From the NCBI RefSeq assembly GCF_014490485.1, contig NZ_JACTVA010000031.1, positions 1-61,472 of the forward strand: a DNA stretch of 61,472 bases, written 5' to 3'. Position numbers and translations under genes: made by a program. Shown in pieces: positions 1,141 to 57,329 of this stretch (position 1 is the stretch's first letter; each line of letters starts with the position of its first letter). Origin of the DNA: Teichococcus aerophilus (GTDB lineage Bacteria > Pseudomonadota > Alphaproteobacteria > Acetobacterales > Acetobacteraceae). The notes below the pieces were generated by a model. That model worked only from the letters and a program-made list of their open reading frames with translations. It was not told the DNA's origin and made no database searches.

Positions 1141-1372
1141 AAGGCCGGGGAAAGAATTCCCCGGACCCCTTCTTTTTTCTGTGAGTTGGGTGGCTGGTGG
1201 AGCGGGTGGTCTCTTGGGGGCGCGCCGGGGGCCTGCGACTGACGCCCCAGCCCGTGCGGCCAATTTGATTCAAACAGGCTTCGCCATCTGGCGCATGCCT
1301 CCGGCCCCGAGCCCGATCTTGAACAGAACAAAAAGAAGATGGGGGCCTGGGGGAATTCCTTCCCCCAGCCTT
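1141..1372. repeat. Family A inverted-terminator repeat, copy A1
   Basis: Left end AAGGCCGGGGAAAGAATTCC... then CCTTCTTTTTTCTG; the right end is its inverted copy, with arms CTGGGGGAA/TTCCCCCAG preceded by AAAAAGAAG. The ends form hairpins with T-tracts pointing inward. The core GACTGACGCCCCAGCCCG near 1238 is a diverged form of the family core. The right-end terminator begins 14 nt after the metH stop codon and probably ends that transcript. Apart from this element I see nothing else in the 354-bp gap between the CDF gene and metH. Confidence 0.85.
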
Positions 1373-1386
1373 CCCCTCCCCCCGCC

Positions 1387-4300
1387 TCAGACCGAGAAGT
1401 ACTTGGCGCGCGGGTGGTGCAGGACGATGGCGCTGGTGGATTGTTCCGGGTGCAGCTGCCATTCGTCGCTGATGGAGACGCCGATGCGGTCCGAGTTCAG
1501 CAGCTTCAGCAGCGGTTCCTGGTCTTCCAGCCGCGGGCAGGCGGGGTAGCCGAAGGAGTAGCGGCCGCCGCGGTAGCTCTGGGCCAGCATCTTCTCCATG
1601 TCCCGGTCGTCGTCGCCGGCGTAGCCCAGCTCGGCGCGGATGCGCTTGTGGACGTATTCGGCCATGGCTTCGGCCATCTCGACCGAGAGGCCGTGCAGGT
1701 AGAGGTAGTCCTGGTAGCGGTTGGCTTCGAACCACTCGCGCGCCAGGTCGCTGGCCTTCTGGCCGACGGTGACAACCTGCAGGCCGATGACGTCGCGCTT
1801 CTCCGGCCCGTCATCGATGTCGCGGATGAAGTCGGCGATGCAGTCGCCGTCTTCCTTGGGCTGGCGCGGCAGGGTGAAGCGGCAGGCTTCGGTGATGCCG
1901 TCTTCCTCGAACAGGATGACGTCGTTGCCCTGGCCGGCGCATTTCCAGTAGCCGTAGATGGCCTGCGGGCTGAGGATCTTTTGCTCCTCCGACAGCGTCA
2001 GCATGCGGCGGAGGACGGGGCGGAGTTCCTGCTTGGCCCAGCCGATGAAGTCTTCCAGGCTGCGGCCTTGTTTCCGGAAGCCCCACTGGAACTGGTAGAG
2101 CGAGCGCTCGTTGACGAAGGGCACCACGGCCTTCGGGTCGCTGTGCAGGACGCGGCTGCCCCAGAAGGGCGGGGTCGGCACGGGCTCGTCGGCGGTCAGG
2201 CGGCGGCGGCGTTCCTGCGCGTAGTTCAGGTCCACGGGCGCGAAGCCGCGCGGGTCGGCGGTGCCGAGGACGCGGGTGGTGTTGCGGGACTTGCCGGCGC
2301 GCTTCTGCTGCAGCGTGCCGAGATAGCCGTCGAAATCGCTGCCCATGACGCGGTCCATCAGGTGCAGGCCGTCGAAGGCATCGCGCGCATAGGCGACGCG
2401 GCCGGAGGCGTATGCGTTGACGCAATCGTCCTCGACGAAGTTACGGGTCAGCGCGGCGCCGCCGAGCAGGACCGGGACCTCCAGCCCCTGGCGGGACATT
2501 TCCTCGAGGTTTTCCTTCATCACCACGGTGGATTTCACCAGCAGGCCGGACATGCCGATGGCGTGCGCCTTGTGCTCGCGCACCGCGACCATCATGTCGG
2601 CCAGCGGCACCTTGATGCCGAGGTTGATGACCTTGTAGCCGTTGTTGGTGAGGATGATGTCGACGAGGTTCTTGCCGATGTCGTGCACGTCCCCGCGCAC
2701 GGTGGCGAGGACGATGGTGCCCTTCTCCTGCCCCTCGATCTTCTCCATGTGCGGTTCGAGATAGGCGACGGCGGCCTTCATCGTCTCGGCGGACTGGAGC
2801 ACGAAGGGGAGCTGCATCTTGCCGGCGCCGAACAGCTCGCCCACGACCTTCATGCCTTCGAGCAGGATGCCATTGATGATGTCCAGCGGCTTGATGCCCT
2901 TGGCCATGGCGTCGGCCAGCTCGTCGTCCAGGCCCTTGCGGTCACCGTCGACGATGCGGTCCTTCAGGCGGCCCTCGACCGTCTCGGCCTTCACCTTCTT
3001 GGCGGAATCGGCGGCTTTGCGGCCGGCGAACATTTCCAGCAGCTTCTGCAGCGGGTCGTAGCCCTCGCTGCGGCGGTCGAAAATCAGGTCTTCGGCGACC
3101 TTCACTTCCTCGGCCGGGATGGAGTGCAGCGGCTTGATTTTGGAGACGTGGACGATGGCGCCGGTCATGCCTGCCTTCACCGCGTGGTCCAGGAACACGC
3201 TGTTCAGCACGTGGCGGGAGGCCGGGTTGAGGCCGAAGGAGATGTTGGACAGGCCGAGGATGATCTGGATGTCCGGGAACTTGTCCCGGATCATGCGGAT
3301 GCCTTCCAGCGTCCACTGGCCGAGCTTGCGGTCGTCCTCGTTGCCCGTGGCGATGGTGAAGGTCAGCGGGTCGATCATCAAATCGCTCTGCGGCAAGCCG
3401 TGCTTGTTGCAGGCGAAATCGACCAGCCGCTCGGCGATGCGGAGCTTGTCCTCCGGCGTCTTCGCCATGCCGACCTCGTCGATGGTCAGGGCGATGACGG
3501 CGGTGCCGAACTTCTTGGCGAGCTTCATGCGTTCGGTCGCATGGCCCTCGCCGTCCTCGAAGTTGATCGAGTTGATGATGGGCTTGCCGCCATGCAGCTT
3601 CAGGGCGGATTCGAGGACGGGGGTCTCGGTGCTGTCGATCACCAGGGGCGCGTTGACGCTGCCGGTGAAGCGGCGGACGACCTCGTTCATCTCCAGCGTC
3701 TCGTCGCGGCCGACGAAGGCGGTGCAGATGTCGAGCGAGTTGGAGCCCTCCCCCACCTGCTCGCGGCCGATGGAGACGCAGGCATCCCAGTCATGCTCGG
3801 CCTGGCGTTCGCGCCACAGCTTGGAGCCGTTGGCGTTGCAGCGCTCGCCGATGGAGAAGTAGCTGTTCTCCTGCCGCAGGGAGACCTGGCCATAGAGGCT
3901 GGCGACGGAAGGGACCCAGTGGAACTGCCGCTGCGCCGGCGCCGGGCGGTACTTGTTGCCGGCGATCTTGCGCAGCATGGCATCCAGGCCCTGGATGTGC
4001 GGGATGGATGTGCCGCAGCAGCCGCCGATGAGGTTCAGCCCGTCTTCCTCGACGAAGCGCTGCATCCAGCTGGCCATTTCCTCGGCGCCGAGCGGGTAGT
4101 GGGTCTTGCCGTCCACCAGCTCCGGCAGGCCGGCATTGGGCTGGCAGGAGAGCAGGCCGGGCCAGTTCTTGGAGAGCCAGCGGACATGCTCGGCCATCTC
4201 CTGCGGGCCGGTGGCGCAGTTCAGGCCGATCAGCGGCACGTCCAGCGCGTGGATGGCGGTGGCGGCGGCGGCGATGTCGCTGCCCACCAGCAGCGTGCCG

Positions 4301-6274: not shown

Positions 6275-6522
6275 AAGGCTGGGGAAAGAATTCCCCAGGC
6301 CCCATCTTTTTTTCTGCGAGTCTGGCGTGACGCTTCAGGGCTGAAAGTGGACGCTTCTGATGATTTTAATAATGGCCACGCGGGCTGAACCGTCAGTCGC
6401 CGGAGGTCCTAGACCTCCGGCGCGAACCGGCCGGGTCTCAGATCAGACCAACCGTTCCACAAGCCCCCCGAAAACTCGAAAAAAGAAGATGGGGATCCGG
6501 GGGAATTCTTTCCCCCGGCCTT
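6275..6522. repeat. Family A inverted-terminator repeat, copy A2 (core inverted)
   Basis: The left end has arms CTGGGGAA/TTCCCCAG and a T7 tract; the right end has CCGGGGGAA/TTCCCCCGG. The conserved core is present in the opposite direction to most copies (GGGCTGAACCGTCAGTCGCC, palindrome at ~6396-6421). It lies between convergent genes: 22 nt after the CxCC gene stop and 8 nt after the stop of the minus-strand membrane gene, so both borders can act as terminators. Confidence 0.88.
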
Positions 6523-8565: not shown

Positions 8566-8829
8566 AAGGCCGGGGGGAATGAATTCCCCCCAGACCCCCC
8601 ATCTTTCTTTTGCGAGCTTGGGGATGGCCCCGAGGTGGTGCGGGGCGGTGCCGGGTGGTGGAGCTGATTGAATCAATAAGGCCACGCGGGCTGCACCGTC
8701 AGTCGCCGAGGGACTAAGTCCCTCGGCGCACCCAGGCGTCGGAACTGGGGCGAGGTGTTCCCGGGAAGCACCCACGGAAAACTCGCAGAAAAAAGAAGGG
8801 GGCTTGGGGGAATTCATTCCCCCAACCTT
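8566..8829. repeat. Family A inverted-terminator repeat, copy A3, inside the yej operon
   Basis: Hairpin ends at 8566-8600 and ~8790-8829 (right arms TTGGGGGAA/TTCCCCCAA). The core is inverted. Its inner palindrome at 8704-8728 reads CGCCGAGGGACT-A-AGTCCCTCGGCG, with several paired substitutions relative to other copies yet still perfect. The right end lies 11 nt beyond the yejE stop and forms a terminator on the yej coding strand, so it should cut yejF off from yejABE unless yejF has its own promoter. Confidence 0.88.
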
Positions 8830-12994: not shown

Positions 12995-13240
12995 AAGGCC
13001 GGGGAAGGAATTCCCCGGGCCCCTTCTTTTCTTTTTTCGAGTTTCTTGGGTGCGGCTGTTGGGGGCGTTGGGCGTGGGAGACGGCTGGGTGCGCCGGAGG
13101 TCTAGGACCTCCGGCGACTGACGGTTCAGCCCTTGTGGCCCATAGTTAAAATCATCAAGAAGCGTCCGCTTTCACTTTGAGGCGCTCGACCAAACTCGCA
13201 GAAAAAAAGAAGGGGTCCGGGAAATTCTTTCCCCGGCCTT
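12995..13240. repeat. Family A inverted-terminator repeat, copy A4
   Basis: A near-consensus copy between the divergent yejA and M81 peptidase genes, where no transcript needs terminating. Left hairpin CCGGGGAA/TTCCCCGG with T-tract; inner palindrome at 13092-13116 (CGCCGGAGGTC-TAG-GACCTCCGGCG); core ACTGACGGTTCAGCCC; right end TCCGGGAAATTCTTTCCCCGG is slightly damaged. Its place between divergent genes shows the element is more than a simple gene-end terminator. Confidence 0.9.
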
Positions 13241-14976: not shown

Positions 14977-15225
14977 AAGGCCGGGGAAAGAATTCCCCGG
15001 ACGCCTTCTTTTCTTTTTTCGAGTTTTCGCCGGGTGGCTGTTGAGGGGATAGGCTGGTTTGGGACCAAGGCCGGAGTGCGCCAGAGGTCTATGACCTCCG
15101 GCGACTGTGGGTTCAGCTCGCGTGGCCCATTTTAGATATCAATGTGGCATCCGCTCCCAGTCCTGAGGCGTGCCGCCAAACTCGAAAAAAGAAGTTAGGG
15201 GTCCGGGAAATTCTTTCCCGGCCTT
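14977..15225. repeat. Family A inverted-terminator repeat, copy A5
   Basis: The left hairpin is intact (CCGGGGAA-AGAA-TTCCCCGG) 95 nt after the M81 gene. Inner palindrome is imperfect (CAGAGGTC-TAT-GACCTCCGGCG). The right end has lost one G (TCCGGGAAATTCTTTCCCGG). Between two same-strand genes. The 105 bp from its end to aroC hold a 6-bp inverted repeat GCAGAA/TTCTGC at 15300-15321. Confidence 0.86.
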
Positions 15226-16517: not shown

Positions 16518-16560
16518 AAGGCCAGGGGAAAGAATTCCCCTGTACCCCCTTCTTTTTTTC
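16518..16560 (+). terminator. Solitary left end of family A (A6), terminator after aroC
   Basis: Arms CAGGGGAA/TTCCCCTG with an AGAA loop, followed by CCCCCTTCTTTTTTTC. The A-T pair replaces the usual C-G pair at the second stem position and is compensated. No matching right end follows before the lipoprotein operon, so it is either a decayed element or a hairpin that exists alone. The rest of the gap to 16852 holds only the palindrome at 16752-16793. Confidence 0.8.
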
Positions 16561-16751
16561 TGCGGTTTGAGGTTCTTGCTGAACTGGCACTCTGCCTGAT
16601 GTGCCCGACATCGTCCAAGGCCATGGACCTTCGGAACACTCCGGCTGGGCTGGAGAAACCGAGGGGTGCCCGTTATCCGCGAACATCGCGAGAGGGCCTG
16701 GAATGCATGCCTCAGCCTTCTGCCGCCGTTCAAGTCGGTGCCGATGAGGCC

Positions 16752-21199: not shown

Positions 21200-21430
21200 A
21201 AGGCCGGGGAAAGAATTCCCCGGACCCCTTCTTTTTTCTGCGAGTTTGGCGTGGCGCCTCAGGACTGAGAGCGGGCGCTGCTTGGTGATTTCAATAATGG
21301 GCCACGAGGGCTGAACCCGCAGTCGCCGGAGGTCCAACCCAGCAGTCTCTCAAGCGCACCGCTTCAACAGCCACGCCGGCAAACTCGAAAAAAGGAAAGA
21401 AGGGGTCCGGGGAATTCTTTCCCCGGCCTT
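21200..21430. repeat. Family A inverted-terminator repeat, copy A7 (core inverted)
   Basis: Both terminal hairpins are near consensus. Core in reverse direction: TTTGGCGTGGCGCCTCAGGA then GGGCTGAACCCGCAGTCGCC; the inner palindrome is cut short (CGCCGGAGGTCCAAC). It lies between convergent transcripts; the right border is 11 nt after the tlyA stop. Confidence 0.88.
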
Positions 21431-27022: not shown

Positions 27023-27777
27023 AAGGCCGGGGGAAGGAATTCCCCCGGGCCCCCATCTTTTTCCTGCGAGTCTGGGGTGGGGCTTGGATGGGGGGTGAAG
27101 AGTGTTGGGGCTGCGAGCAGCCGGACCACAGGGGACTGTCTCGGAAGTCTGCTGAGTGAAGGCGAGGTCGGACTGTTTCGTGCCGGCACGGAGGCGCGCC
27201 TGGCCCAATGCGGGGGCATTGGGCAGGCTGCCGACAAGGCTGGTACGGAAAGGCCCGCCGCCACTCGGCAGGCTTTTGAAGCAGTCGCTCAGGCCTGCGG
27301 CGCTGTGCCGGCGGGCCAGGCAGTCGTTTGGATCAGCGTCGGGCTTCTTCGCTTTCGGCCCTTGGCGGGGGTGCGGTTGGATCGGGGGTGCGGTGGCCGA
27401 GCAGCGGTTCCGGCGCCTCATGCAGCGCCAGCCCTTCCCGCTGGTAGCGGATTCGGCGCACCCGTTCCCGCCGGTGCTCCAGCCATCGACCAATTCCGGC
27501 GAAAGCCAGCGGGCCGCAGCCGGTCGCCAGGCTGGCGTGGGTCTTGGCATCCAGAGGCAGCGGCAGCATCCAGGTGCCGAATGCAGCCGCCAGCCCCGCG
27601 GCCGCCGCCCATCCCCAGCCCCGGTAGTCCGTACCCGCGCCCGATCTCAAGCCGCCCTCCCCACTCCGCACCGCGCCAGACTATCGCCCCGCTGGGCCGA
27701 GCGCGACCTTGGGCATTCCGGGCGAAGAACTCGCGGACAAAAGATGGGGGCCTGGGGGAATTCTTTCCCCCAGCCTT
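27023..27777. repeat. Family A ends around a small gene (copy A8, 755 bp)
   Basis: Left end at 27023-27064 (arms CCGGGGGAA/TTCCCCCGG, then ATCTTTTTCCTGCGAGT) and right end at about 27736-27777 (CTGGGGGAA/TTCCCCCAG preceded by AAAAGATGG). The pair is inverted as in other copies but 755 bp apart, and a 112-codon membrane-protein ORF lies inside. The family core is missing. It could be a gene captured between two ends or a copy that grew by insertion. No other gene is visible at 27065-27332. Confidence 0.65.
27333..27671 (-). CDS. Small putative membrane protein inside repeat A8
   Basis: 112 aa: a short Gly-rich start, one or two hydrophobic segments (GWAAAAGLAAAFGTWMLPL and ASLATGCGPLAFAGI), then a strongly basic helix (RWLEHRRERVRRIRYQREG) and a Pro/Glu-rich tail. 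The positive charges after the membrane part suggest a cytoplasmic C-terminus. No family recognised; no clear ribosome binding site. It could be a spurious ORF in GC-rich DNA, but the hydrophobic/basic pattern speaks for coding. Confidence 0.45.
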   Translation of the reverse strand: MRSGEGGLRSGAGTDYRGWGWAAAAGLAAAFGTWMLPLPLDAKTHASLATGCGPLAFAGIGRWLEHRRERVRRIRYQREGLALHEAPEPLLGHRTPDPTAPPPRAESEEARR

Positions 27778-29465: not shown

Positions 29466-29711
29466 AAGGCCGGGGAAGGAATTCCCCAGGCCCCTTCTTT
29501 CTTTTTTTCGAGTTTTCGCGCGGGGCTTTTGAAGCCGTGCGCTTGAGAGACGGCTGGGTGCGCCGGAGGTCCAGCACCTCCGGCGACTGAAGGTTCAGCC
29601 CCGCGTGGCCTATTGTTAAAATCATCAAGCAGCGCCCGCTCCCAGTCCTGAAGCGCTTCGCTAAACTCGCAGAAAAAAAGAAGGGGTCCGGGGAATTCCT
29701 TCCCCGGCCTT
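29466..29711. repeat. Family A inverted-terminator repeat, copy A9
   Basis: Starts 12 nt after the racemase stop. Left arms CCGGGGAA/TTCCCCAGG with one mismatch, then CTTTCTTTTTTTCGAGTTTT. Inner palindrome CGCCGGAGGTC-CAG-CACCTCCGGCG has one mismatch. Core ACTGAAGGTTCAGCCCC and CTGAAGCGCTTCGCTAAAC, right end near consensus. Between two same-strand genes. Confidence 0.9.
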
Positions 29712-31969: not shown

Positions 31970-32439
31970 AAGGCCGGGGAAGGAATTCCCCGGGCCCCTT
32001 CTTTTTTCTTCGGGTCTCTGGGGGTGGCAGCGACGGGGGTTGGCCGGCCCTTGGTTTGGTGCGCGACCTTTGGGGTGCGGGTTGACTTGGGAACTGCCGG
32101 GTGGCCGTGGCGCCCTTGGTCATACCGGTGTCTGGCTGACAGGGCCTGCAGTGGCGCGCGGCGGCACAGGAACATTCCGGCTGCGCCTTGGGCGCGGGCT
32201 CACCTGAGGCGGAAGCGCTGCGAATCACGCGATCAGGAACATGGAGAGAGCGCGCTTTGTGAGCGCACAGGTCATGCCCTCACTCGTCCTTCTGACGCGT
32301 TGCAGCCTGTGCTGGCGTCAGAAGCAGTTCAGGCGCGGCCGCGCGGGTCGCCGGAAGCCCGACGCACCACCCGGCCATCCAGGCCCGAACCCAACTCGAG
32401 GAAAGACGATGCGGCCTGGGGAATTCCTTCCCCAGCCTT
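31970..32439. repeat. Family A repeat, copy A10 (470 bp, core replaced)
   Basis: Left end CCGGGGAA-GGAA-TTCCCCGG plus T6, right end CTGGGGAA/TTCCCCAG. Orientation as usual between convergent MFS and phnA-like genes. The interior is longer than in other copies and I find no trace of the inner palindrome or core; GCGTTGCAGCCTGTGCTGGC and CCTTCTGACGC/GCGTCAGAAG at ~32288-32326 form a local hairpin. No gene inside. Confidence 0.75.
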
Positions 32440-32871: not shown

Positions 32872-33114
32872 AAGGCCGGGGAAGGGATTCCCCGGGCCCC
32901 TTCTTTTTTCTTCGAGTCTTCGGGTGTGGCTGCCGGGGGCGTCCTGCCTTTCCGCGGCCGGACCGGGGTGACGCCGGAGACTGATGGTTCAGCCCCGGTG
33001 GCCCGTGATCTTTCACGGAAGCATCTGCCGGCTTCGAAGCCCCACGCCAACGGACAGAGAAAAGATGGCGTCGACGTATACGTTTACGCAGGGGGATTCT
33101 TTCCCCTGACCCTT
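32872..33114. repeat. Family A repeat, copy A11 (right end decayed)
   Basis: The left end is intact (CCGGGGAA-GGGA-TTCCCCGG + T6). Core GAGACTGATGGTTCAGCCCC is recognisable though the inner palindrome has been lost. The right end has diverged: CAGGGGGATTCTTTCCCCTG still pairs, with CAGGGG/CCCCTG instead of CCGGGG/CCCCGG, but the A-rich flank is broken up. Between two minus-strand genes. Confidence 0.75.
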
Positions 33115-34473: not shown

Positions 34474-34520
34474 GACTCGAAAAAAGAAGATGGGGTCCGG
34501 GGAATTCCTTCCCCGGCCTT
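34474..34520 (-). terminator. Solitary family A right end (A12)
   Basis: ACTCGAAAAAAGAAGATGG followed by TCCGGGGAA-TTCC-TTCCCCGG-CCTT. The partner left end is not found upstream; instead a family B hairpin lies at 34219-34275. It sits upstream of the plus-strand DDAH-like gene, so it terminates nothing obvious on its own strand. It suggests that B insertion or deletion removed the other half. Confidence 0.75.
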
Positions 34521-38753: not shown

Positions 38754-38803
38754 GGTCCAGCGGGCGCCGCCCCTGGACCCCCGCCAGGGTGGAAAATCCA
38801 CCC
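38754..38803. terminator. Two hairpins between convergent genes
   Basis: GGTCCAG...CTGGACC (38754-38779, with GGGCGCCGCCC in between) and GGGTGGA-AAA-TCCACCC (38787-38803). They separate the stops of the hydrolase (+) and the P-loop kinase (-). The first is similar in style to family B end 1 but not the same sequence. Confidence 0.6.
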
Positions 38804-38815
38804 CGGACCCCGCTG

Positions 38816-42780: not shown

Positions 42781-43034
42781 AAGGCCGGGGAAGGAATTCC
42801 CCGGGCCCCTTCTTTTCTTTTTTCGAGTTTTCGCGGGCGTGGCTGTTGAGAGGTTTGTTCTGGTTTGAGGCCCGGCCAGTTCGCGCCGGAGGTCTATGAC
42901 CTCCGGCGACTGAGGGTTCAGCCCGTGTGGCCCATTTTAAATATCATCCAGAGCGTCCGCTCTCAGTCCTGAAGCGCTTCGCTAAACTCGCAGAAAAAAG
43001 AAGGGGGTCCGGGGGAATTCATTCCCCCGGCCTT
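42781..43034. repeat. Family A inverted-terminator repeat, copy A13
   Basis: A near-consensus copy between convergent yjbH and VOC genes: both hairpins intact, inner palindrome CGCCGGAGGTC-TAT-GACCTCCGGCG at ~42892-42916, core ACTGAGGGTTCAGCCCGTGT and CATTTTAAATATCATC, then CTCAGTCCTGAAGCGCTTCG. The right border ends 16 nt after the VOC stop. Good reference copy for the family. Confidence 0.93.
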
Positions 43035-44748: not shown

Positions 44749-44795
44749 ACATGCTGGGACTGCCGGGTTAGCCGGGGGGGAAGCGGGTGGGAAGG

Positions 44796-45043
44796 AAGGC
44801 CGGGGAAAGAATTCCCCGGGCCCCTTCTTTTATTTTTTTCGAGTTTTCACGCGGAAGCTGTTGGACGGTCGAGCTTGAGAGACGGCTGGGTGCGCCGGAG
44901 GTCCAGAACCTCCGGCGACTGAGGGTTCAGCCCAGTTGGCCCATTATAAATATCATCAAGCAGCGCCCGCTCTCAGTCCCGGAGCGCTTAGCCAAACTCG
45001 CAGAAAGAAAAGAAGGGGTCCGGGGAATTCCTTCCCCGGCCTT
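44796..45043. repeat. Family A inverted-terminator repeat, copy A14
   Basis: Between convergent HxlR and SMP-30 genes. Left hairpin CCGGGGAA-AGAA-TTCCCCGG with TTCTTTTATTTTTTTCGAG, inner palindrome CGCCGGAGGTC-CAG-AACCTCCGGCG, core ACTGAGGGTTCAGCCC and ATTATAAATATCATC, right hairpin TCCGGGGAA/TTCCCCGG. Confidence 0.92.
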
Positions 45044-45070
45044 CCCTTCGCTTCAAAGCGCGAAGCTTCG

Positions 45071-46225: not shown

Positions 46226-46465
46226 AAGGCCGGGGAAGGAATTCCCCGGACCCCATCTTTCTTCTGCGAGTCTTTCGGGCGTGGCTGTGGCGGCGTCAGC
46301 TTTTCAGAGCGCAGGCTGGGGTTACGCTGGAGGTCCAGGACCGCCGGAGGCTGATGGTTGGGCCCCCGGAGTCCACGATATTCTCATGGGTGATCGGTCA
46401 CCCCGAGCCCCACGCCAACTGGTAGAAAAAGATGGGGTTTCAGGGGAATTCCTGCCCCTGACCTT
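46226..46465. repeat. Family A repeat, copy A15 (diverged)
   Basis: Left hairpin CCGGGGAA-GGAA-TTCCCCGG with ATCTTTCTTCTGCGAGTCTT; right hairpin CAGGGGAA-TTCC-TGCCCCTG. Inner palindrome decayed (CTGGAGGTCCAGGACCGCCGGAG), core GCTGATGGTTGGGCCC. Between divergent SMP-30 and molybdenum hydroxylase genes. The remaining 260 bp on its left and 170 bp on its right show no further gene. Confidence 0.8.
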
Positions 46466-46633
46466 CCCCGCCAACCCAAGCCGAACGCTGACCAGGGCCA
46501 AGGCCAGGGGCAGCGCGCAACGGGTCAACGCCCCCGCCCGGCACCCCGATCCAACCGTCATCGCAAGGGGACTTCCCTTTTCGGGCTGGCTGGGCCGATG
46601 ATGCGGCCGGGACAGAATGCGGGAAACGAACCA

Positions 46634-48958: not shown

Positions 48959-49196
48959 CGCGACGGCCAGGGCCAGGGGGGCACTTCCCCTGGCCCTGGC
49001 AATACTAAAAACAGACCAAGTGGTTTGCAAATTGCGGGGCCAGCCGGTAGGCTCCATGCCTAGGCACCGGTTGAACCCGGCGGGCCCGGCCCCGGTTATT
49101 CCAGGGTCAGCCCACCACGAACCCCGTGTGTGGGCCCATGTGCCGAGGGCTGGCCAGGCGAGCGGCCGGCCCCGGCCCTGCAGGAAAGATCATGCG
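48959..49196. other. Gap before the tiny lipoprotein gene
   Basis: 238 bp with no gene. An AT-richer part (49003-49040, ACTAAAAACAGACCAAGTGG) likely includes the promoter of the small lipoprotein. No family A or B copy. Confidence 0.4.
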
Positions 49197-49382
49197 ATGA
49201 TTCAGCTGATGCGCCGCCGGTGGGGGCCCGCCGCGCTCCTGCTCCTCGCCACGATCGGGCTGGGCGGCTGCGGCGTGGTGGCCCTGCCCTTCCGTGCCAC
49301 CAGCGCCGTGGTGAAAGTCGTGCCGGTGGCCGGCGACGTGGTCGCGGCACCCTTCGATGCGACGGCTGCAGTGATCGACTGA
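49197..49382 (+). CDS. 61-aa lipoprotein
   Basis: MIQLMRRRWGPAALLLLATI then lipobox GLGGC: a type II signal peptide leaves a mature peptide of about 37 residues (CGVVALPFRATSAVVKVVP...) rich in Val/Ala with repeating VVxxPF units. It resembles the very small NF038104-type lipoproteins; that match is from memory of the pattern and moderate. Membrane-anchored, function unknown. An ATG 5 nt earlier is out of frame. A family A terminator end follows 32 nt after the stop. Confidence 0.78.
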   Translation: MIQLMRRRWGPAALLLLATIGLGGCGVVALPFRATSAVVKVVPVAGDVVAAPFDATAAVID

Positions 49383-49414
49383 GGACGGCGGCTGTCGGCC
49401 GGCGAGAAAAGAGG

Positions 49415-49655
49415 AAGGCCGGGGAAAGAATTCCCCGGACCCCATCTTCTTTTTTCGAGTGTTCGGGGGTGGCCGTTGAGAGGTTGGGTCTGAGAGACGG
49501 CTGGGTGCGCCGGAGGTTCTGGACCTCCGGCGACTGACGGTTCAGCCCGCGTGGCCCATTTTAAATATCATCAGAAGCGCCCGCTCTCAGTCCTGCAGCG
49601 CCACGCCAAACTCGCAAAAAGAAGAAGGGGTCCGGGGAATTCATTCCCCGGCCTT
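49415..49655. repeat. Family A inverted-terminator repeat, copy A16
   Basis: Between convergent lipoprotein and RNase D genes. Inner palindrome CGCCGGAGGT-TCTGG-ACCTCCGGCG at 49508-49532, core ACTGACGGTTCAGCCCGCGT and CATTTTAAATATCATC. Both end hairpins intact. The right end lies 21 nt after the rnd stop. Confidence 0.92.
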
Positions 49656-49676
49656 CTGCCCTCAGCGCCAGGACCT

Positions 49677-50861: not shown

Positions 50862-50960
50862 TGTGGATATGCTTCTAGCGAAGCACGCGCCGCTCGCAAA
50901 CCCGTGGGCGGCGGAAAGCCGCGCTTGGCGGTGGGGCGGCGTTACGGTGAGGGAAGGTTT

Positions 50961-51208
50961 AAGGCCGGGGAAGGAATTCCCCGGGCCCCTTCTTTTCTTT
51001 TTTCGAATTTGTGGGGCGTGGCTGTTGAAGGGTCGGTTTGGTTTGAGGTCTGGCCGGCCGCGCCGGAGGTCGAGGACCTCCGGCGACTGCGGGTTCAGCC
51101 CTGGTGGCCCATTTTGAATATCATCAGGCAGCGTCCGCCCTTGGCCTGATGCGTGATGCCAAACTCGCAGAAAAAAGAAGGGGCCCGGGGAATTCCTTCC
51201 CCGGCCTT
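50961..51208. repeat. Family A inverted-terminator repeat, copy A17
   Basis: Between divergent rnd and aspS. Inner palindrome CGCCGGAGGTC-GAG-GACCTCCGGCG, core ACTGCGGGTTCAGCCC and CATTTTGAATATCATC, right end GCCCGGGGAATTCCTTCC. Both hairpins intact. A location between two divergent genes again separates promoters, not gene ends. Confidence 0.92.
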
Positions 51209-51288
51209 CTCTCCCCCTCAATAGGTCGCCGAGGGACGATTTCCCTTGTGCCAGTGGGGTTGCGCGTGGCTGGAGGGGCAGTGCGGGC

Positions 51289-51294
51289 TTGACA
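51289..51294 (+). promoter_or_regulatory. Possible -35 box of aspS
   Basis: TTGACA stands 60 nt before the aspS ATG in GC-rich DNA. No good -10 is seen at the proper distance, so this is weak evidence. Confidence 0.35.
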
Positions 51295-51353
51295 GGCCAG
51301 CCTCGCCCGCCCCTTCTTCGCCCGTTTTTCCGCCAGCCGGGGTTTTACTCACG

Positions 51354-53156
51354 ATGCACGCCTACCGGACCCATAACTGTGGCGCATTGCGCGCCGATGA
51401 TGCCGGCAAGACCGCGCGCCTCTCCGGCTGGGTGCACCGCAAGCGCGACCATGGTGGCCTGCTGTTCATCGACCTGCGCGACCATTACGGGCTGACCCAG
51501 TGCGTCATCCCCTCCGGCTCCGAGGTGTTCGAGGCGGCTGACGCGCTGCGCGCCGAGAGCGTCATCACGGTGACCGGCGATGTGGTGGCCCGCGAGGGCA
51601 GCACGGTGAACGACAAGCTGCCGACCGGCGCCATCGAGCTGCGGGTCAAGGCGCTGGAGGTGCAGAGCCACGCCGAGGTGCTGCCGATCCAGGTGGCCGG
51701 CGAGCAGGAATTCCCCGAGGACCTGCGCCTGCGTTACCGCTTCCTGGATCTGCGGCGTGAGAAGCAGCACCGGAACATCATGCTGCGCGCCGGCGTCATC
51801 GCCAGCATCCGCCGCCGCATGATCGACCAGGGCTTTACGGAATTCCAGACGCCGATCCTGACGGCGAGCAGCCCGGAAGGCGCGCGCGACTTCCTGGTGC
51901 CCAGCCGTAACCACCCGGGCAGCTTCTATGCGCTGCCGCAGGCGCCGCAGCAGTTCAAGCAGCTGGCGATGGTGGCGGGCTTCGACCGCTACTTCCAGAT
52001 CGCCCCCTGCTTCCGGGACGAGGCGAGCCGCGCCGACCGCTCCCCGGGCGAGTTCTACCAGCTCGACTTCGAGATGAGTTTTGTGACTCAGGAAGACGTC
52101 TTCGCCGCCATCGAGCCGGTGATGGAGGGCATCTTCAACGAGTTCGGCGGGGGCCGGAAGGTGACGCAGGCGCCCTTCCCGCGCATTCCGTACGACACGG
52201 CGATGCTCGACTACGGTTCCGACAAGCCGGACCTGCGGAACCCGCTGAAGATCACCGACGTGACGGAGAGCTTCCGCGACTCCGGCTTCGGGCTGTTCAA
52301 CAAGGTGGTGGCCGGTGGCGGCATTGTCCGCGCCATTCCGGCGCCGGGCGCGGCCGCCAACCCGCGCGGCTTCTTCGATAAGCTGAACGAGTGGGCGCGC
52401 GCCGAGGGCGCCGGCGGCCTGGGCTACATCCAGTTCGCCGTGGACGGGCCCAAGGGGCCGATCGCGAAGAACCTGGAGGCCGACCGCGTCGAGGCCATCC
52501 GCGTGGCCTGCAACCTGCAGCCGGGCGATGCCGTCTTCTTCGCCGCCGGCAAGAAGGACGAGACACCGAAATTCGCCGGCAAGGTGCGTACCAAGCTGGG
52601 CGAGGAGCTGAAGCTGATCGAGCAGGGCGAGTTCCGCTTCTGCTGGATCGTCGACTTCCCGATGTACGAGTTGAACGAAGAGACCGGGCAGGTGGATTTC
52701 AGCCACAACCCGTTCTCCATGCCGCAGGGTGGCCTGGAGGCCCTCAACAGCATGAACCCGTTGGACATCAAGGCCTTCCAGTACGACATCGTCTGCAACG
52801 GCATCGAGCTCTCCTCCGGCGCCATCCGCAACCACCGCCCGGACATCATGATCCGTGCCTTCGAGATCGCCGGCTACACGGCCCAGACGGTGGAAGAACG
52901 GTTCGGCGGCATGCTGAACGCCTTCCGCTACGGCGCGCCGCCGCATGGTGGCTCGGCCCCCGGCATCGACCGGATGGTGATGTTGCTGGCCGACGAGCCC
53001 AATATCCGTGAAGTGATCCTGTTCCCGCTGAACCAGCAGGGCCAGGACCTTATGATGTTCGCACCGGCCCCGGTGGACGCTGCGCGCCTTAAAGAACTGT
53101 CCATCAAGCTCGATTTGCCGCCGGCAAAGGGTGCGGCGGCGCCTAAGACTCCCTAA
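51354..53156 (+). CDS. aspS: Aspartyl-tRNA synthetase (bacterial type)
   Basis: 600 aa class II synthetase. N-terminal OB-fold anticodon domain ([22 protein letters not shown]), then YRFLDLRR, motif 2 [24 protein letters not shown], the bacterial insertion (GAD) domain about 285-420, and motif 3 [18 protein letters not shown]. The full-length bacterial type. In organisms lacking AsnRS such enzymes are often non-discriminating and also charge tRNA-Asn; I cannot decide that from the window. eipB follows 38 nt later on the same strand. Confidence 0.97.
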
Positions 53157-53194
53157 CTGTCCGGGAGACCGGATTGACGAAGGAGCTACTGGCC

Positions 53195-54091
53195 ATGCGG
53201 CTGCGCGACTTGCTGGGTACCACCGCTGCCGTGGCCGCCCTGGCCTTTGGATTGTCGCTGCCGGCGGGGGCGCAAAGCCCGACCTCGCCGGCCGCGCCGC
53301 CCGCCACCCCGCCGGCCCCTGCCGCCAACCAGGCGCCCGCGGCCCCGTTGGCGGGGGCGGAGGCCATGGCCTCCCACCGCGCGGCCTACCGGCTGAACCT
53401 GGCCAGCGTGCGGCCGGACGGGCAGATCGGCCAGGCCGAGGGCACCATGGCCTTCGAGGTGCGCGACGCCTGCGATGGCTGGACCACCCGCCAGCGCCTG
53501 GCGCTGACCGTGGTCGACCGCGCGGGCCAGGAAATCCAGACGGCCTCCGACTACTCCACCTGGGAGAGCAAGGACGGGCGGCGCCTGCGCTTCACCATGA
53601 CGCAATCCTCCCAGGGCGCCATCAGCCAGCGCGTCTCCGGCGAGGCCGAGCTGAATGGCGAGAATGGCGGCACCGTCCGCTACGAGGAGCCCGCGGCGGC
53701 GCAGATGACGCTGCCGCCCGGCACCATCCTGCCCATGGCCCACACCATCCGCACCCTGGCGCTGGCCCGCGCCGGGCAGCAGCGGATGCTGGTGACGCCG
53801 CTGTTCGACGGCACGACGGCCGAGGGCGCGCAGGACAGCACCACCCTGCTCTCCGCCTGGACCGCCGCGCAGGCCAACCCGCGCTTCCCGCTGCTGGCCG
53901 ACCAAGCGAGCGCGCGGATGAATATCGCCTTCTTCAACCGCGAGGCCTCGGCCGGGGCCGGCACGCCGGAATACCAGGTGGGGCTGCGCTACTTCGCCAA
54001 CGGCATCGCGGACGACATGAAGATGGACTTTGGCGACTTCACCCTGAACGGGGTGCTGGAAAGTCTGGACCCGCTGCCGCACGATTGCTGA
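53195..54091 (+). CDS. eipB: EipB-family cell envelope protein (DUF1849)
   Basis: 298 aa with a signal peptide (to about AGAQ) and an Ala/Pro-rich linker, then the DUF1849 domain: MASHRAAYRLNLASVRPDGQ, AEGTMAFEVRDACDGWTTRQ and TASDYSTWESKDGRRLRF. EipB is a periplasmic beta-spiral protein needed for envelope integrity in Brucella and is conserved in alphaproteobacteria. Its conserved disulfide is present here as Cys93 (DACDGW) and the C-terminal Cys298. ATG 53195 is chosen because GGAGC is 8 nt upstream; a TTG at 53174 is an alternative. Confidence 0.92.
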   Translation: MRLRDLLGTTAAVAALAFGLSLPAGAQSPTSPAAPPATPPAPAANQAPAAPLAGAEAMASHRAAYRLNLASVRPDGQIGQAEGTMAFEVRDACDGWTTRQRLALTVVDRAGQEIQTASDYSTWESKDGRRLRFTMTQSSQGAISQRVSGEAELNGENGGTVRYEEPAAAQMTLPPGTILPMAHTIRTLALARAGQQRMLVTPLFDGTTAEGAQDSTTLLSAWTAAQANPRFPLLADQASARMNIAFFNREASAGAGTPEYQVGLRYFANGIADDMKMDFGDFTLNGVLESLDPLPHDC

Positions 54092-54151
54092 GGCGGGCGC
54101 GGTCGCCGTTAGGGGGGTTACCCCTCTTCGGCTTTGCTGATGGTGAGGAGG

Positions 54152-54396
54152 AAGGCCAGGGAAAGAATTCCCCGGGCCCCTTCTTTTGCTTTTTCGAGTT
54201 TTTCGGCTGTGGCTGTTGGGCGGTTGGCCCTGAGACCCGGCTGGGTGCGCCGGAGGTCTAGGACCTCCGGCGACTGACGGTTCAGCCCTTGTTGCCCATT
54301 ATGAGAATCTTCAAGCAACGTCCGCTCTCAGCCCTCCAGCGCAACGCCAAACTCGCAGAAAAAAGAAGGGGTCCGGGGAATTCCTTCCCCGGCCTT
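54152..54396. repeat. Family A inverted-terminator repeat, copy A18
   Basis: Between convergent eipB and asparaginase genes. Left arm CCAGGGAA pairs with TTCCCCGG with one A-C mismatch. Inner palindrome CGCCGGAGGTC-TAG-GACCTCCGGCG perfect. Core ACTGACGGTTCAGCCC, right end TCCGGGGAA-TTCC-TTCCCCGG intact. Confidence 0.9.
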
Positions 54397-54436
54397 TCTT
54401 TTCCTGCCCTTCCAGCGCGAATGAAGCGCCCCCCTC

Positions 54437-55435
54437 TCAATACGTCTCGAACATCCGGGAGATCTCCGCCGGGTCCTGGGTGACGGAGAGGGCGAAGGCC
54501 AGCAGGATGCGGGCTTTCTGCGGGTTCAGGTTGTCGGCGGGGATGAAGCCGTCGCGGCCCATCTTCTCGGTACGGACGACGCGGCCGCTGCCGACGCGGC
54601 TGGCTTGCACCACAACCACGCCGGCGGCCATGGCGGCGCGCAGGGCATCGGCCTCCGCCGGGGTGCCGGAGCCGGGGGCGAAGCCGGCGCTGACGATGCC
54701 CCGCGCGCCTGCGGCGACGAAGGCGTTGATGGCGGTGCCGTCCGCATCCGCATGGGCGTAGGCGATGTCGACGCGCGGCAGGACGTCCAGGCCGCGGATG
54801 TCGAATTCGGTGTCGGGCGCGGCGCGGCGCAGGGGGCGGCGGTAGAAGGCGATACGGTCCCCATCCGCGTGACCAAGCGCGCCGAAATCGGGCGTGCGGA
54901 AGGTCTGCAGCCGCCAGGTGGAGGTCTTGGTGACATCGCGGGCGGCGTGGATCTCGTCGTTCAGCAGGACCAGCACCCCGAGGCCGCGCGCCTGCGGGCT
55001 GGCCGCCACCCGCACGGCGTTCAGCAGGTTCATCCCGGCATCGGAGGACAGGGCGGAGGCCGGGCGCTGCGAGCCCACCATCACCACCGGCACCGAGACC
55101 TTGAGGCTGAGGGAAAGGGCGTAGGCGGTTTCCTCCATCGAGGAGGTGCCGTGGCCGATGACGATGCCGGCGAGGCCGGGTTCCTCCGCCTCCAGCCGGC
55201 TGCATTCGCGGGACAGGGCGCGCCAGTCGGTAAAGCCGATACGGGTGGAGATGACGGCGCCATAGGGCACGGCGAAGACATCGGCGACCTCCGCCAGCTC
55301 CGGCACCCGGGCGAGGATGGCGGGGGCATCCATGACGATGCCAGCCACGCCGTAATCCTGGATATCCAGCGGACCGCGCCCGATGGAGGCCATGGTGCCC
55401 CCCGTGCCGATGAACGCGATGCGAGGCTTGGACAT
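54437..55435 (-). CDS. Asparaginase-family protein with altered active site
   Basis: 332 aa of the type I/II L-asparaginase family. First active-site block IGTGGTMASIGRG with the nucleophile Thr14; second block IGHGTSSMEETAYAL, where Thr97 is kept but the catalytic Asp is replaced by Ser98; Lys170 in LLNDEIHAARDVTKTST is present. The Asp is part of the Thr-Asp-Lys triad in known enzymes, so activity may be changed or directed at another substrate. No signal peptide. ATG 55435 fits the family start (MSKPRIAFIG). Confidence 0.88.
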   Translation of the reverse strand: MSKPRIAFIGTGGTMASIGRGPLDIQDYGVAGIVMDAPAILARVPELAEVADVFAVPYGAVISTRIGFTDWRALSRECSRLEAEEPGLAGIVIGHGTSSMEETAYALSLSLKVSVPVVMVGSQRPASALSSDAGMNLLNAVRVAASPQARGLGVLVLLNDEIHAARDVTKTSTWRLQTFRTPDFGALGHADGDRIAFYRRPLRRAAPDTEFDIRGLDVLPRVDIAYAHADADGTAINAFVAAGARGIVSAGFAPGSGTPAEADALRAAMAAGVVVVQASRVGSGRVVRTEKMGRDGFIPADNLNPQKARILLAFALSVTQDPAEISRMFETY

Positions 55436-55571
55436 GCTGGGATCTCCGGGATGGAAAGGCGGAGAACGGTCTAGAACGGCAGCGCGGCGGACAGAAGCCG
55501 CGATTGCTTGGGCCGGGTGCGGTTTGGAGTCTGGGGGTTCGGCGCGCGACAGGGGCATGCAAGGTGGAGCG

Positions 55572-55978
55572 AAGGCCGGGGAAGGAATTCCCCGGGCCCC
55601 TTCTTTTCCTTTTTTCGAGTTTTGCGGGCCGGCCGTTCAATGGGTAGCCTGAGAAGCTGTTTGGATACTCTGGTGGGTCGGTCACGGCGGGCTTTTCCGC
55701 GCCAGCTTTGCTGGTGGCCTGGCCAAATGTCCCCGCACCTGGCTTGCGGCACCTCCGCGCTGGCATAAGAGATCCCGGCCCCGCCTTCAGCCGCCAGAGT
55801 TTCCAAACAGCCTGTCAGGGGGCGGCTGGGCGCGCTGGAAATCCAGGGCCTCCAACGACTGACGGTTCAGCTCTGGTGGCCCATGATTGAAATCATCAAG
55901 CAGTGTCCGCTCTCTGCCTGAAGCGCTGCGCCAAGCTGGTCGAAAGAAGAAGGGGTTGGGGAATTCCTTCCCCGGCCT
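55572..55978. repeat. Family A repeat with nested family C (copy A19)
   Basis: A family A copy of 407 bp; the extra length comes from a 156-bp family C element at 55656-55811 inserted just before the GGCTGGGTGCGCCGG part of A. The inner palindrome has decayed (CGCTGGAAATCCAGGGCCTCC). Core ACTGACGGTTCAGCTC and right end GGTTGGGGAA-TTCC-TTCCCCGG remain. Between the asparaginase and SH3 genes. Confidence 0.85.
55656..55811. mobile_element. Family C element, copy C1 (MITE-like)
   Basis: About 156 bp with inverted ends: left GCTGTTTGGATACTCTGG, right CCAGAGTTTCCAAACAGC. No ORF that could code a transposase. TIR shape and size match miniature inverted-repeat elements or an IS remnant. No clear target duplication is seen at the edges. 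Confidence 0.65.
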
Positions 55979-55988
55979 CCCTGTCGCC

Positions 55989-56738
55989 TCAGCGGGAGGC
56001 GGTGGCGATGGTCTGTGCCGGGGCGGGTGCGCCGGTGCGGGTAATCATGCTGGCATGCACCCAGCCTTCCGGCGCGGTGGCGCCCAGTTGCAGCCAGCCG
56101 CCGGGGGCTTCGGCGAAGATGCGCAGGACGGTGCCGCGCGGCACGACGCGGACGACATCGCCGCCGCCATTCGGGTGGGCGCGCATGTTGCCGGCCTGGC
56201 GGAGGGCGGCGCCGCCCTGGACGGTCTGCTGCTCGGCCTCGATCCGCGCCACGGCGGCGGAGGGGGCGGGGGTCAGGGTGGCGAGGTCGGTCGGCACGAC
56301 CGGCAGGCGGGGTGGGGCGGCGGTGCGCTGCTGGCCGCTGGCGGCGCTGGCGACGCAGCGTGTGTGGCTTTCCACGAAGACGCGGGTGGCCGAGGCGCGC
56401 TCGGTCGCCACATGCTGCTCGACGGCCAGGGAGCCATCCGGCTGGCGGTTGACGATGGCGATGAACGGCGCTGCCTGGCCGCTGCCGACCAGGGCCACCT
56501 GGCCGCAGACGGCCATGCTGCCGGGGGCGGATTGCGGGAAGGTCTGGACCTCACCGATTTCGACGGCCGCGTTCAGGGACTGGCGCAGGCCGGCCTCGGC
56601 GGCGGATTTAGCCTCGCGGGCCAGGGCAGCCTCGGCGGCGGGGCGCGGCAGGCTGGCCTGGTCCGCGGCATCGTCGCACGCGGTCAGGGCGATGAGGGCG
56701 AGAAGGGCGGCAAAGCCGGTGGCCGTCGCGGGGTGCAC
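55989..56738 (-). CDS. SH3-domain lipoprotein
   Basis: 249 aa starting with GTG (V-HPATATGFAALLALIALTAC; lipobox LTAC). A first region (about 35-135) has a Cys-containing fold (MAVCGQVALVGSGQAAPFIAI ... SHTRCVASAA). The C-terminal part (about 175-240) is a bacterial SH3 repeat: GGAALRQAGNMRAHPNGGGD, VVPRGTVLRIFAEAPGGWLQL, GWVHASMITR. Membrane-anchored and facing the periplasm, where such SH3 domains often bind peptidoglycan. Flanked by two A+C composite repeats. Confidence 0.85.
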   Translation of the reverse strand: MHPATATGFAALLALIALTACDDAADQASLPRPAAEAALAREAKSAAEAGLRQSLNAAVEIGEVQTFPQSAPGSMAVCGQVALVGSGQAAPFIAIVNRQPDGSLAVEQHVATERASATRVFVESHTRCVASAASGQQRTAAPPRLPVVPTDLATLTPAPSAAVARIEAEQQTVQGGAALRQAGNMRAHPNGGGDVVRVVPRGTVLRIFAEAPGGWLQLGATAPEGWVHASMITRTGAPAPAQTIATASR

Positions 56739-56942
56739 GGGGGGAGCCTCCCTTGATGGAGCAGGGGTTGGGGGATTTGCGGGAAGAACAAGTCGTCCCT
56801 GCGTGAGTTTCTGAAATTACAGTTTCGGAACGAAATGAGGGGATCAACTCGGCGCGCTTATGGCCTGGGTCACGCCGCTTGGGCGGTCCGTCCGAGCGGT
56901 TGGGGGAAGCTGAAACGAGGGGTGGGCTGGGGTTCGGGGGCG

Positions 56943-57329
56943 AAGGCCGGGGAAAGAATTCCCCGGCCCCCTTCTTTTTTCCGCGAGTTTGGCATCCCGC
57001 TTAGAGACCGCTTGAAAACTCTGCTGGGGCGGTCACGGCGGGCTTTTCCGCGTCAGCTTTTCCGATGGCTTGGCCAAATGTCCCTGTATTTGGCCAAGCA
57101 ACTTCCGCGTTGGCACGGAAATCCGGCCGCGCCCCCCAGCCGCCAGAGTTTCCAAACAGCCCGTGAGAACACAGCTGGGTGCGCCGGAGGTCTAGGACCT
57201 CCAGCGACTGACGGTTCAGCCCGCGTGGCCGATCTTCAAAATCATCGAAGAGCGTCCGCTTTTGCCCTGAAGCACGACGCTAACCTCGCAGAAAGAAGAT
57301 AGGGCCTGGGGAATTCCTTCCCCAGCCTT
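56943..57329. repeat. Family A repeat with nested family C (copy A20)
   Basis: 387 bp, with family C at ~57009-57170 at the same place as in A19. Left hairpin CCGGGGAA-AGAA-TTCCCCGG; inner palindrome CGCCGGAGGTC-TAG-GACCTCCAGCG with one mismatch; core ACTGACGGTTCAGCCCGCGT; right hairpin CTGGGGAA-TTCC-TTCCCCAG. It ends 25 nt after the addA stop and should terminate addA. Confidence 0.87.
57009..57170. mobile_element. Family C element, copy C2 (MITE-like)
   Basis: Left end GCTTGAAAACTCTGCTGG is eroded relative to C1; right end CCAGAGTTTCCAAACAGC is the same. Internal matches to C1 include GGTCACGGCGGGCTTTTCCG and TGGCCAAATGTCCC. No coding capacity. Confidence 0.63.

Follow-up and report, generated by a model that had tools for sequence, protein, structure and literature searches.

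The genome of this Roseomonas-type bacterium carries, in several hundred copies, a non-coding repeat with two inward-facing, terminator-like hairpin ends. The repeat is an intergenic inverted doublet, typically ~245 bp in length. It is probably best explained as a non-coding inverted doublet of the REP-dimer kind, multiplied as a whole, mainly downstream of genes, its ends having been derived in this lineage into predicted terminators. Computational analysis defines it as a unit repeated at high copy number, placed with a strong bias relative to genes and missing from named sites in relatives. One core occurs between two border dialects, and the borders predominate among gene ends that feature a hairpin followed by a T-tract.

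Structure and copy number of the repeat

A 245 bp consensus was derived from 65 copies, which have a median pairwise identity of 80% (highest, 92%). Borders matching with up to 2 mismatches number 649 in 5.66 Mb, against none with the reversed pattern; by the ratio 649 x 247/172, the genome may host ~930 borders. The very high copy number anticipated by the earlier note is thus borne out, as are its inward-pointing T-tracts and the REPIN/BIME-like arrangement of paired inverted hairpins. In an 820 kb sample, which consists of contigs matched in border or element scans and may be enriched, 247 borders form 108 inward pairs and 31 singles, some of which may be pairs with the other end below detection. 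Neighbours within 500 bp are outward in 3 cases and in the same direction in 5. The density of pairs varies among contigs from 0 to 27.7 per 100 kb. One pair, having no neighbouring gene call, was dropped to give the set of 107 used below. Doublets are better kept than singles (mean HMM score 48.5, n = 214, vs 38.6, n = 31; P = 3e-5).

A homologous directional core is common to 81 of the 107 sampled pairs; in an alternative clustering run one group included 87 of 106, partly via inserted repeats. The border motif is a 24 bp palindrome, and the hairpin and the T-tract belong to the best-conserved stretches of the repeat. Pairing is kept in the stems of the 247 borders, as computed: the seventh stem pair is C-G in 156, G-C in 31, T-A in 25 and A-T in 16. 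Tails are of two types, ...TTTCGAG and ...CTGCGAG; both tails could be typed in 35 of 106 scored pairs, being opposite in 32 and equal in 3. Terminal inverted repeats are present, the two element ends being complementary to each other, and the type copy folds as a single hairpin (-163.8 kcal/mol, z -10). The whole-element fold was considered as a constrained structure and dropped: left and right stem variants are weakly associated (P = 0.05 and 0.08), and the local hairpin was therefore taken as the unit.

Elements in the window

The window is the whole stretch of DNA analysed, 61,472 nucleotides. Border scans and inspection of the ends identified 19 pairs that face inward, of which 16518-16719 and 32872-33114 have a degenerate right end, and one lone end. 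The 18 pairs and two single ends counted earlier agree with this set once 16518 is taken as a single end. The pattern CCGGGGAAnnnnTTCCCCGG, searched with up to 3 mismatches, has 37 matches (mean in 100 shuffles 1.0, largest 7), among which 35530 and 37165 are non-borders and the border at 15202/15203 appears as two; the pattern also misses some diverged borders. A border HMM also retrieved 37 borders, arranged as 17 pairs and 3 singles. No Rfam match was found in the window at gathering score. Total lengths range from 202 to 754 bp, wider than the 230-470 bp first reported. With our own gene calls, 20 borders facing a gene lie 2-95 nt after the stop codon, the number given earlier, and the three copies then placed between divergent genes are confirmed at 12995, 46226 and 50961, with a fourth at 27024.

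Canonical elements on the plus strand include E4 (12995..13239), between divergent genes and with an empty site in relative G107; E5 (14977..15225), between tandem genes; and E9 (29466..29711), the site of which is also empty in G107. E12 (42781..43033), E13 (44796..45043), E15 (49415..49655, the query copy) and E17 (54152..54396), all canonical and on the plus strand, separate convergent genes. The E12 site is empty in G303 and G302 and holds an unrelated longer sequence in G307 and G269; E17 is absent in G307, G269 and G300, and its site coincides with a 2 kb gap in G239. E16 (50961..51208), again canonical and on the plus strand, resides between divergent genes and is absent in 8/8 relatives with both flanks aligned. 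E7 (21200..21430) is a canonical element on the minus strand, with a reversed core, and six relatives have no element at the site. E18 (55572..55978) and E19 (56943..57329), canonical and on the plus strand, are enlarged by a second inverted repeat to 407 and 387 bp in total; four relatives lack E18, and in four there is no room for E19.

The remaining elements have no assigned strand. E1 (1141..1372) and E14 (46226..46465) are border pairs with diverged cores, the latter located between divergent genes and missing in seven relatives. E2 (6275..6522) is an inward pair between convergent genes, and a border is found near the same junction in G107 (L068, 8140); at the junction of the inward pair E3 (8566..8829), inserts with a GAATTC hairpin are present in G107 and G302 as well. 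E6 (16518..16719) and E11 (32872..33114) have good left borders; the right border is degenerate in E6, and in E11 it is split by an imperfect palindrome of 22 bp. E8 (27024..27777), a border pair of 754 bp in total, includes another repeat sequence and separates divergent genes; pairs occur at this junction in G302 and G107, too. E10 (31970..32439), 470 bp in total, has borders surrounding a core unrelated to the others. The lone border (34474..34520, minus strand) is a single right end reading leftwards, and four relatives have none at the site.

Two border dialects

A new observation is that one core module is found between borders of two dialects, GC-type and T-type. GC-type borders lack the T-tract. 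One such hairpin, of the form found family-wide (GGGGTCC...GGCGGGG, without T-tract), is located in the window at 38779..38811 on the minus strand; no adjoining partner was found. The GC-type signature was identified in 103/395 genomes of the family (32/84 genera), the T-type hairpin in 13/299 (5/102 genera), being nearly confined to the genus. In the individual rows of the dialect classification, the core is flanked by GC-type borders in G269, G307, G303 and G202, and by T-type borders in G302, G299 and some G307 elements. Rows were relied on rather than totals, since the dialect classifier mislabels as T-tract some GC-type borders having TTTT further in. From the breadth of the two distributions, rather than from a tree, we infer that the GC-type is older and that change proceeded from GC-type to T-type.

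Placement relative to genes

In the 820 kb sample, pairs occupy 59/100 convergent, 40/448 tandem and 8/101 divergent junctions (convergent enrichment P = 2e-15 vs divergent, 4e-26 vs tandem), which bears out the strong bias towards gene 3' ends noted earlier. Among junctions with gaps of at least 50 nt the figures are 59/98, 40/229 and 8/99, respectively. None of 107 pairs resides in a called gene, with a tolerance of 40 nt. Gene 3' ends are faced by 158 of 214 sides, at a median distance of 29.5 nt. T-type borders are closer to stop codons than GC-type borders, both here (median 27 vs 42.5 nt) and in relatives (26 vs 41.5 nt). GC-type borders without T-tract also face gene 3' ends, in 8/13 cases here and in 38/43 in relatives, where the loci used for border-placement and tag counts come mostly from element, core or synteny matches and are non-random; a position just after a stop codon hence proves by itself no termination.

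Presence and absence in relatives

Ten window sites have no element in at least one relative, two-sided synteny being lacking at E2, E5, E6 and E10 and ambiguous at E1, E11, E13 and E15. This argues that the repeat spread as a unit, probably by means of some enzyme, and the presence/absence variation expected in the earlier note is observed between species, E16 being absent in 8/8. G107, too, has a pair at the junctions of E8, E13 and E15, and at each the element's own counterpart is not the closest in sequence among the 107; this would fit separate insertions, as well as gene conversion. Orthology with G107 is accordingly not supported by sequence at these three junctions, and E3 is uninformative: the G107 copy at that junction has E3 as nearest relative, E3 is nearest also to another G107 copy (L068, 8140), and descent is thus not demonstrated.

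No excess of target-site duplications was detected in 96 scorable pairs (offsets 0-5; lengths 3-6, 8 and 9), the other eleven of the 107 lacking ends that could be placed, and direct flank similarity was reached by 17/200 shuffles. Insertion edges are unreadable at the sites of relatives, because most of their intergenic DNA does not align. Insertion into pre-existing palindromes was considered and dropped; flank complementarity is slightly above that of shuffles (5/200 reach it), an excess that we attribute to both flanks being purine-rich.

The RAYT gene proposed earlier as a check did not turn up: PF01797 has no match in this genome, and one weak partial match in 1/17 genomes of the genus. 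The same single match was obtained among 18 genomes with either dialect. Loss or an assembly gap may account for the absence, and the CGTC-tagged repeats have no RAYT either. No mobilising enzyme was found. No parent transposon was found among the 108 pairs (longest 753 bp), nor between facing borders up to 8 kb apart in the 820 kb, about 14% of the genome; the one extra facing couple within 8 kb, 32872-34520, encloses an HpcH/HpaI-type aldolase gene, not a transposase. One genome of the genus rated 100% complete (G016) has no match to the element; in five genomes, this one among them, the count is at least 150. A plasmid search returned a single partial match, of 56 bp and on a plasmid from Pseudoroseomonas cervicalis, and a phage search no match.

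Comparison with known repeats

The earlier statement that no described element has this build goes too far: PMC3733652 describes head-head dimers of REPs near the 3' ends of convergent genes, and in some of these the spacers are conserved. The same paper presents CGTC-tagged repeats as high-copy dimers with conserved or variable spacers, not tied to transposase genes, those between convergent genes lying mostly <20 bp from 3' ends in the two species shown. The present repeats resemble them as high-copy head-head dimers near convergent 3' ends, but have no fixed CGTC tag and feature the GGRCCCC signature, a longer core and T-tracts.

REP doublets of Pseudomonas and Enterobacteria have, according to PMC3116915, palindromic ends in inverted doublets, are extragenic, reach hundreds of copies and show compensatory stem changes; doublets are better kept than singlets, and GI doublets span 71 bp between 16-mers. 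The likeness extends to all of this: inverted doublets, extragenic location, copy number, doublet upkeep and stem changes. In contrast to REPINs as portrayed there, the repeats have no fixed GTAG tag, no RAYT found, a core of ~150 bp and a T-tract next to each hairpin. Of 247 borders, taken together with their flanks, 17 contain GTAG and 25 CGTC, and neither is at the border in the consensus. The repeat works like a REP doublet or REPIN, but is not filed as a REPIN, having no fixed GTAG/CGTC tag, no RAYT found and no target-site duplication seen.

Terminator-like borders

On the favoured reading, the repeat would have multiplied entire, as a core between two inward hairpin ends, and it is found mainly a short way past the 3' ends of genes. 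The ends would have a form derived in this lineage: immediately behind the ACCCC signature, a T-tract takes the place held by GC in the GC-type, and GAAGG in the outer flank is able to pair with CCTTC. With the T-tract and this pairing, the hairpins are predicted to be intrinsic terminators for transcripts arriving from either side, and by their build the borders possibly act as terminators or two-way insulators.

In the 820 kb, 144/541 gene ends here have a hairpin plus T-tract, 132 of them with a facing T-type border; in 100 kb from each of four relatives the figures are 1/58, 6/45, 2/62 and 6/62. The other hairpin-plus-T sites number 6 under a rule stricter than suits the borders; of 153 gene ends that a border faces, 132 pass a relaxed rule, applied alike to all sites. 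This rule also picks up the antisense side in 27/543 gene 5' ends here. Runs of at least 6 T in the 820 kb fall within borders in 124 of 157 cases, on the strand downstream of the hairpin, and at least 4 T directly follow the last paired base in 128/247 borders. Four borders fold at -24.3 to -29.2 kcal/mol, with z values between -0.8 and -3.8. Under strict criteria, a terminator scan of the region 42700-57400 gave 9 matches vs 10.1 in shuffles; 3 hit the 16 borders of that region, only one in the inward direction.

Selection on termination itself finds no support in three tests. The better-kept border is the 3'-facing one in 22 and the 5'-facing one in 18 of 40 tandem elements (P = 0.32, not significant); among lone single borders between tandem genes, the orientation suits the upstream gene in 4 and opposes it in 7; stem wobble on the transcribed strand shows no bias (G.U 19 vs A.C 30, P = 0.15). 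Since the ends resemble terminators and exist in several hundred copies, most of the terminator-like stop signals of this genome may stem from a single repeat that spread. More tentatively, an old, family-wide doublet without U-tract could have gained matching changes in the hairpin flanks and become a two-way terminator cassette, ~400 pairs of which would provide nearly all intrinsic termination of a GC-rich genome, relatives having almost none.

Alternative explanations

Imperfect palindromes can be corrected by template switching as DNA replicates, which would keep hairpins paired. A selfish repeat without host role, placed as observed through removal near promoters and paired through such correction, is the rival we take most seriously, though at well below even chances. 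The absence of a G.U over A.C bias, 3'-facing borders that are not significantly better kept, and the 3'-end placement shared by GC-type borders all agree with it; the T-type hairpins, which join the outer GAAGG, the matching CCTTC and the T-tract in a terminator-like build, and the concentration within borders of 124/157 long T runs, speak against it. We consider it unlikely that the repeats are MITEs, non-autonomous transposons whose long inverted ends are shared by an insertion sequence, the DDE transposase of which mobilises them in trans. They are short, non-coding, dispersed, directional units with mutually complementary ends, able to fold as one strong hairpin and variable in site between species, with empty sites in relatives; but their ends are themselves hairpins, left and right ends vary with weak association, the 96 scorable pairs show no target-site duplication, and the 820 kb reveal no parent transposon, no pair exceeding 753 bp and one longer facing couple, which holds the aldolase gene.

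That the borders are the ordinary intrinsic terminators of the genus, kept by selection and paired because convergent genes each need one, is improbable and already disfavoured. The location of 59/107 pairs between convergent genes, the well-kept hairpin and T-tract, the border carried by most hairpin-plus-T gene ends and the shorter stop-codon distance of T-type borders would suit it. Against it stand full pairs at 40 tandem junctions, the tandem lone singles (4 for, 7 against the upstream gene), cores homologous in 81/107 pairs, the lack of a match in G016 and relatives that have no border at the corresponding gene ends. It is a very remote prospect that the repeat is a DNA uptake sequence doubling as a terminator. 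Uptake motifs lie in genes too, and none of 107 pairs does; the motif, moreover, is not of 9-11 nt but a 24 bp palindrome, and it occurs in doublets around a conserved core. A short, conserved motif that is part of terminator-like hairpins and exists in hundreds of copies recalls the dual use described for Neisseria and Pasteurellaceae, where one repeat supplies a large share of predicted intrinsic terminators (PMC1852404). The likeness to that system is one repeat supplying many predicted terminators, whereas motif, pairing and spacing differ, and here a doublet with core is found with no sampled pair in a called gene.

Should multiplication of a REP-like doublet be the correct reading, it would also show that REP-type doublets reach high copy without a detectable RAYT, through some means of spread. 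If the borders do terminate, as their build would allow, the spread of one repeat family has equipped a single genus with a class of transcription stops throughout the genome. The GC-type ends found at like positions in relatives provide a natural control, and make the role of REP-like repeats at gene ends directly testable.

The repeat unit

The paired inward-facing hairpin borders described in the earlier note were recovered, the window carrying 19 inward-facing pairs (E1 to E19, numbered left to right) and one lone border (34474–34520). Read inward, a border is made of AAGG and an 8 bp stem, followed by a GRCCCC signature, then a T-rich tract and finally either CGAGTTT or CTGCGAGT. The hairpin loop is NGAA in most copies, and an EcoRI site spans loop and stem. 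The hairpin pattern is matched 37 times in the window versus 1.0 expected. The genome-wide search suggested in the same note (5.66 Mb, 140 contigs) found 649 borders with up to 2 mismatches, and none with the reversed control. In 820 kb of contigs carrying pattern matches (hereafter, the sample), an HMM detected 247 borders versus 172 by pattern; scaled accordingly, the genome would host ~930 borders and some 400 pairs. The repeat is thus genuine and highly abundant, a doublet of the REP-dimer type.

In the sample, 216 of the 247 borders form 108 inward pairs, most measuring 237–260 bp, and 31 are single. The core, the sequence between two facing borders, is homologous to one seed set in 81 of 107 pairs; 45 of these cores point one way and 36 the opposite way. 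A 245 bp consensus was built from 65 copies; pairwise identity has a median of 80% and reaches 92% at most. The two tails of a pair differ in a fixed way: among the 35 of 106 pairs with both tails typable, 32 feature opposite types. E18, E19 and other longer copies are canonical copies plus other inserted sequence. A different inverted repeat is inserted in the cores of E18 (55649–55743) and E19 (57000–57094), the two being 81% identical over 95 nt; the insert in E8 is, by eye, another one, resembling residues 108483–108839 of C24, a contig of the same genome. All three inserts look like nested MITEs. In E11, an imperfect copy of a 22 bp palindrome, GCGTAAACGTATACGTTTACGC, lies between hairpin and T-tract (33068–33089); the sample includes four copies of it (up to 2 mismatches), and five of a second palindrome, ATCAAACCTATAGGTTTGAT. 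At locus L068 (C135) of the relative G107, runs of N fall inside one border at each of two elements, as if hairpin borders broke assemblies.

Eleven printed pairs from relatives other than G107 measure 87–179 bp in total, and their interiors look unrelated by eye. The doublet is thus the general build; it is its 245 bp form that expanded in T. aerophilus and G107.

Two border dialects

The inner core module was also found in the relatives G269, G307, G303, G302 and G299, and in G202, which belongs to another genus, but not in G239. Outside T. aerophilus it sits between borders of two kinds (30 loci, printed rows). T-type borders, as in the window, read GAAGGCYGGGGAANGAATTCCCCRGACCCC, TTCTTTTTT, then TTCGAGTTT. 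GC-type borders, which have no T-tract, read CCCCGCYGGGGTG...CACCCCRGACCCCGC, directly followed by TTCGAGTTTT or CATCNGTTTT. The GC-type pattern GGGGTCC-palindrome-GGCGGGG occurs in 103 of 395 genomes (32 of 84 genera) sampled from the order, all matches listed being in Acetobacteraceae; the reversed control matches twice. The T-type hairpin occurs in 13 of 299 genomes of the family (5 of 102 genera). The highest number of GC-type hairpins among the 395 genomes, 170 copies, resides in G063, a member of another genus.

From how widely each type is distributed, we infer that the GC-type is probably the older form, and that the T-type may have arisen in this genus via changes on both hairpin sides. 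A T-tract would have been gained inside the hairpin, and GAAGG, able to pair with CCTTC, outside.

In RepRanger (PMC12306157), the T-rich tail is what tells REPs and terminators apart, a rule which would split the two dialects into different classes. The doublet is not classed as a REPIN, since the tests for the tag and for a RAYT were negative. What is unusual is the T-tract dialect and how strongly it predominates among hairpin+T sites. No description of the element was seen among the listed titles and abstract openings of open-access literature on Roseomonas and Acetobacteraceae repeats and on repeat-borne terminators.

Presence/absence and search for a mobiliser

Comparison with relatives, also proposed earlier, revealed ten window sites (E4, E7, E9, E12, E14, E16, E17, E18, E19, and the lone border) lacking the element between aligned flanks in at least one relative. 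E16 is absent from all 8 relatives tested; at the E3 and E8 junctions border sequence is found also in a relative. Flanks align at about 67–92% identity, and edges and duplications are unreadable at the relatives' sites because intergenic DNA mostly fails to align. No target-site duplication was found within the T. aerophilus genome.

The RAYT gene that the earlier note had proposed to look for did not emerge: PF01797, the family including RAYTs, has 0 matches in this genome. One weak partial match was found among 17 genomes of the genus, and the same match is the single one across 18 genomes with either border dialect; the search works, as the E. coli control gives a match. No transposase lies between facing borders in any facing couple of the sample, where only one couple larger than 753 bp and smaller than 8 kb was found, around an aldolase gene.

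Placement relative to genes

According to our own gene calls for the sample, pairs reside in 59/100 convergent, 40/448 tandem and 8/101 divergent junctions; at junctions of at least 50 nt, figures are 59/98, 40/229 and 8/99. No pair falls inside called genes (40 nt tolerance). The median distance is 29.5 nt for sides facing a 3' end, 135 nt for sides facing a 5' end. This placement resembles that of REP repeats, as described in PMC3733652.

Constraint on the hairpins and predicted termination

At stem pair 7 of the 247 borders, C-G (156), G-C (31), T-A (25) and A-T (16) were observed: letters change, pairing is kept. Within an element, left and right border variants are only weakly associated (P = 0.05 and 0.08); what is kept would therefore seem to be the local hairpin, although a whole type copy is predicted to fold as one hairpin. 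On the transcribed strand, G.U pairs (19) are not in excess over A.C (30; P = 0.15). The stem variation is compatible with constraint or correction at either level, DNA or RNA.

Termination at the borders, predicted from their build, is likely. In the sample, 124 of 157 runs of at least 6 T fall in borders, on the strand downstream of the hairpin. By one relaxed rule applied to all genomes, 144 of the 541 gene 3' ends with room score for a hairpin with a T-rich window after it; a facing border is present at 132 of the 144. Only 12 of 388 borderless ends, and no shuffled end, passed the rule. In 100 kb of each relative, such ends were 1/58 in G016, 6/45 in G303, 2/62 in G302, and 6/62 in G205, every one in the latter with a border. 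If intrinsic termination matters in this genome, the repeat supplies most of it. A strict terminator scan of 42700–57400 speaks against selection for termination: it touched 3 of 16 borders, one inward, with no excess over shuffles, because about five bases (RCCCC) separate stem and T-tract.

T-type borders are closer to stop codons than GC-type borders: 39/75 versus 1/8 are within 30 nt in T. aerophilus, 6/9 versus 6/38 in relatives. This favours a role in termination, though, by eye, other hairpins often lie between stop codon and GC-type border in the loci examined. Against selection for termination count the about equal upkeep of borders facing 3' and 5' ends, and the orientation of lone singles in tandem context, 4 being oriented for the upstream gene and 7 against. 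GC-type borders also face 3' ends (38/43 in relatives' loci, 8/13 here), which also argues against such selection.

Other repeats in the window

A second dispersed repeat, featuring GC-rich hairpins, is found at 34216–34275, 37208–37267 and 40291–40350, the latter two sharing 95% and 85% identity with the first copy. Five consecutive small genes occupy the minus strand at 16853–19287; three share a 74 nt repeat (69–73% identical), and the genes are perhaps paralogues.
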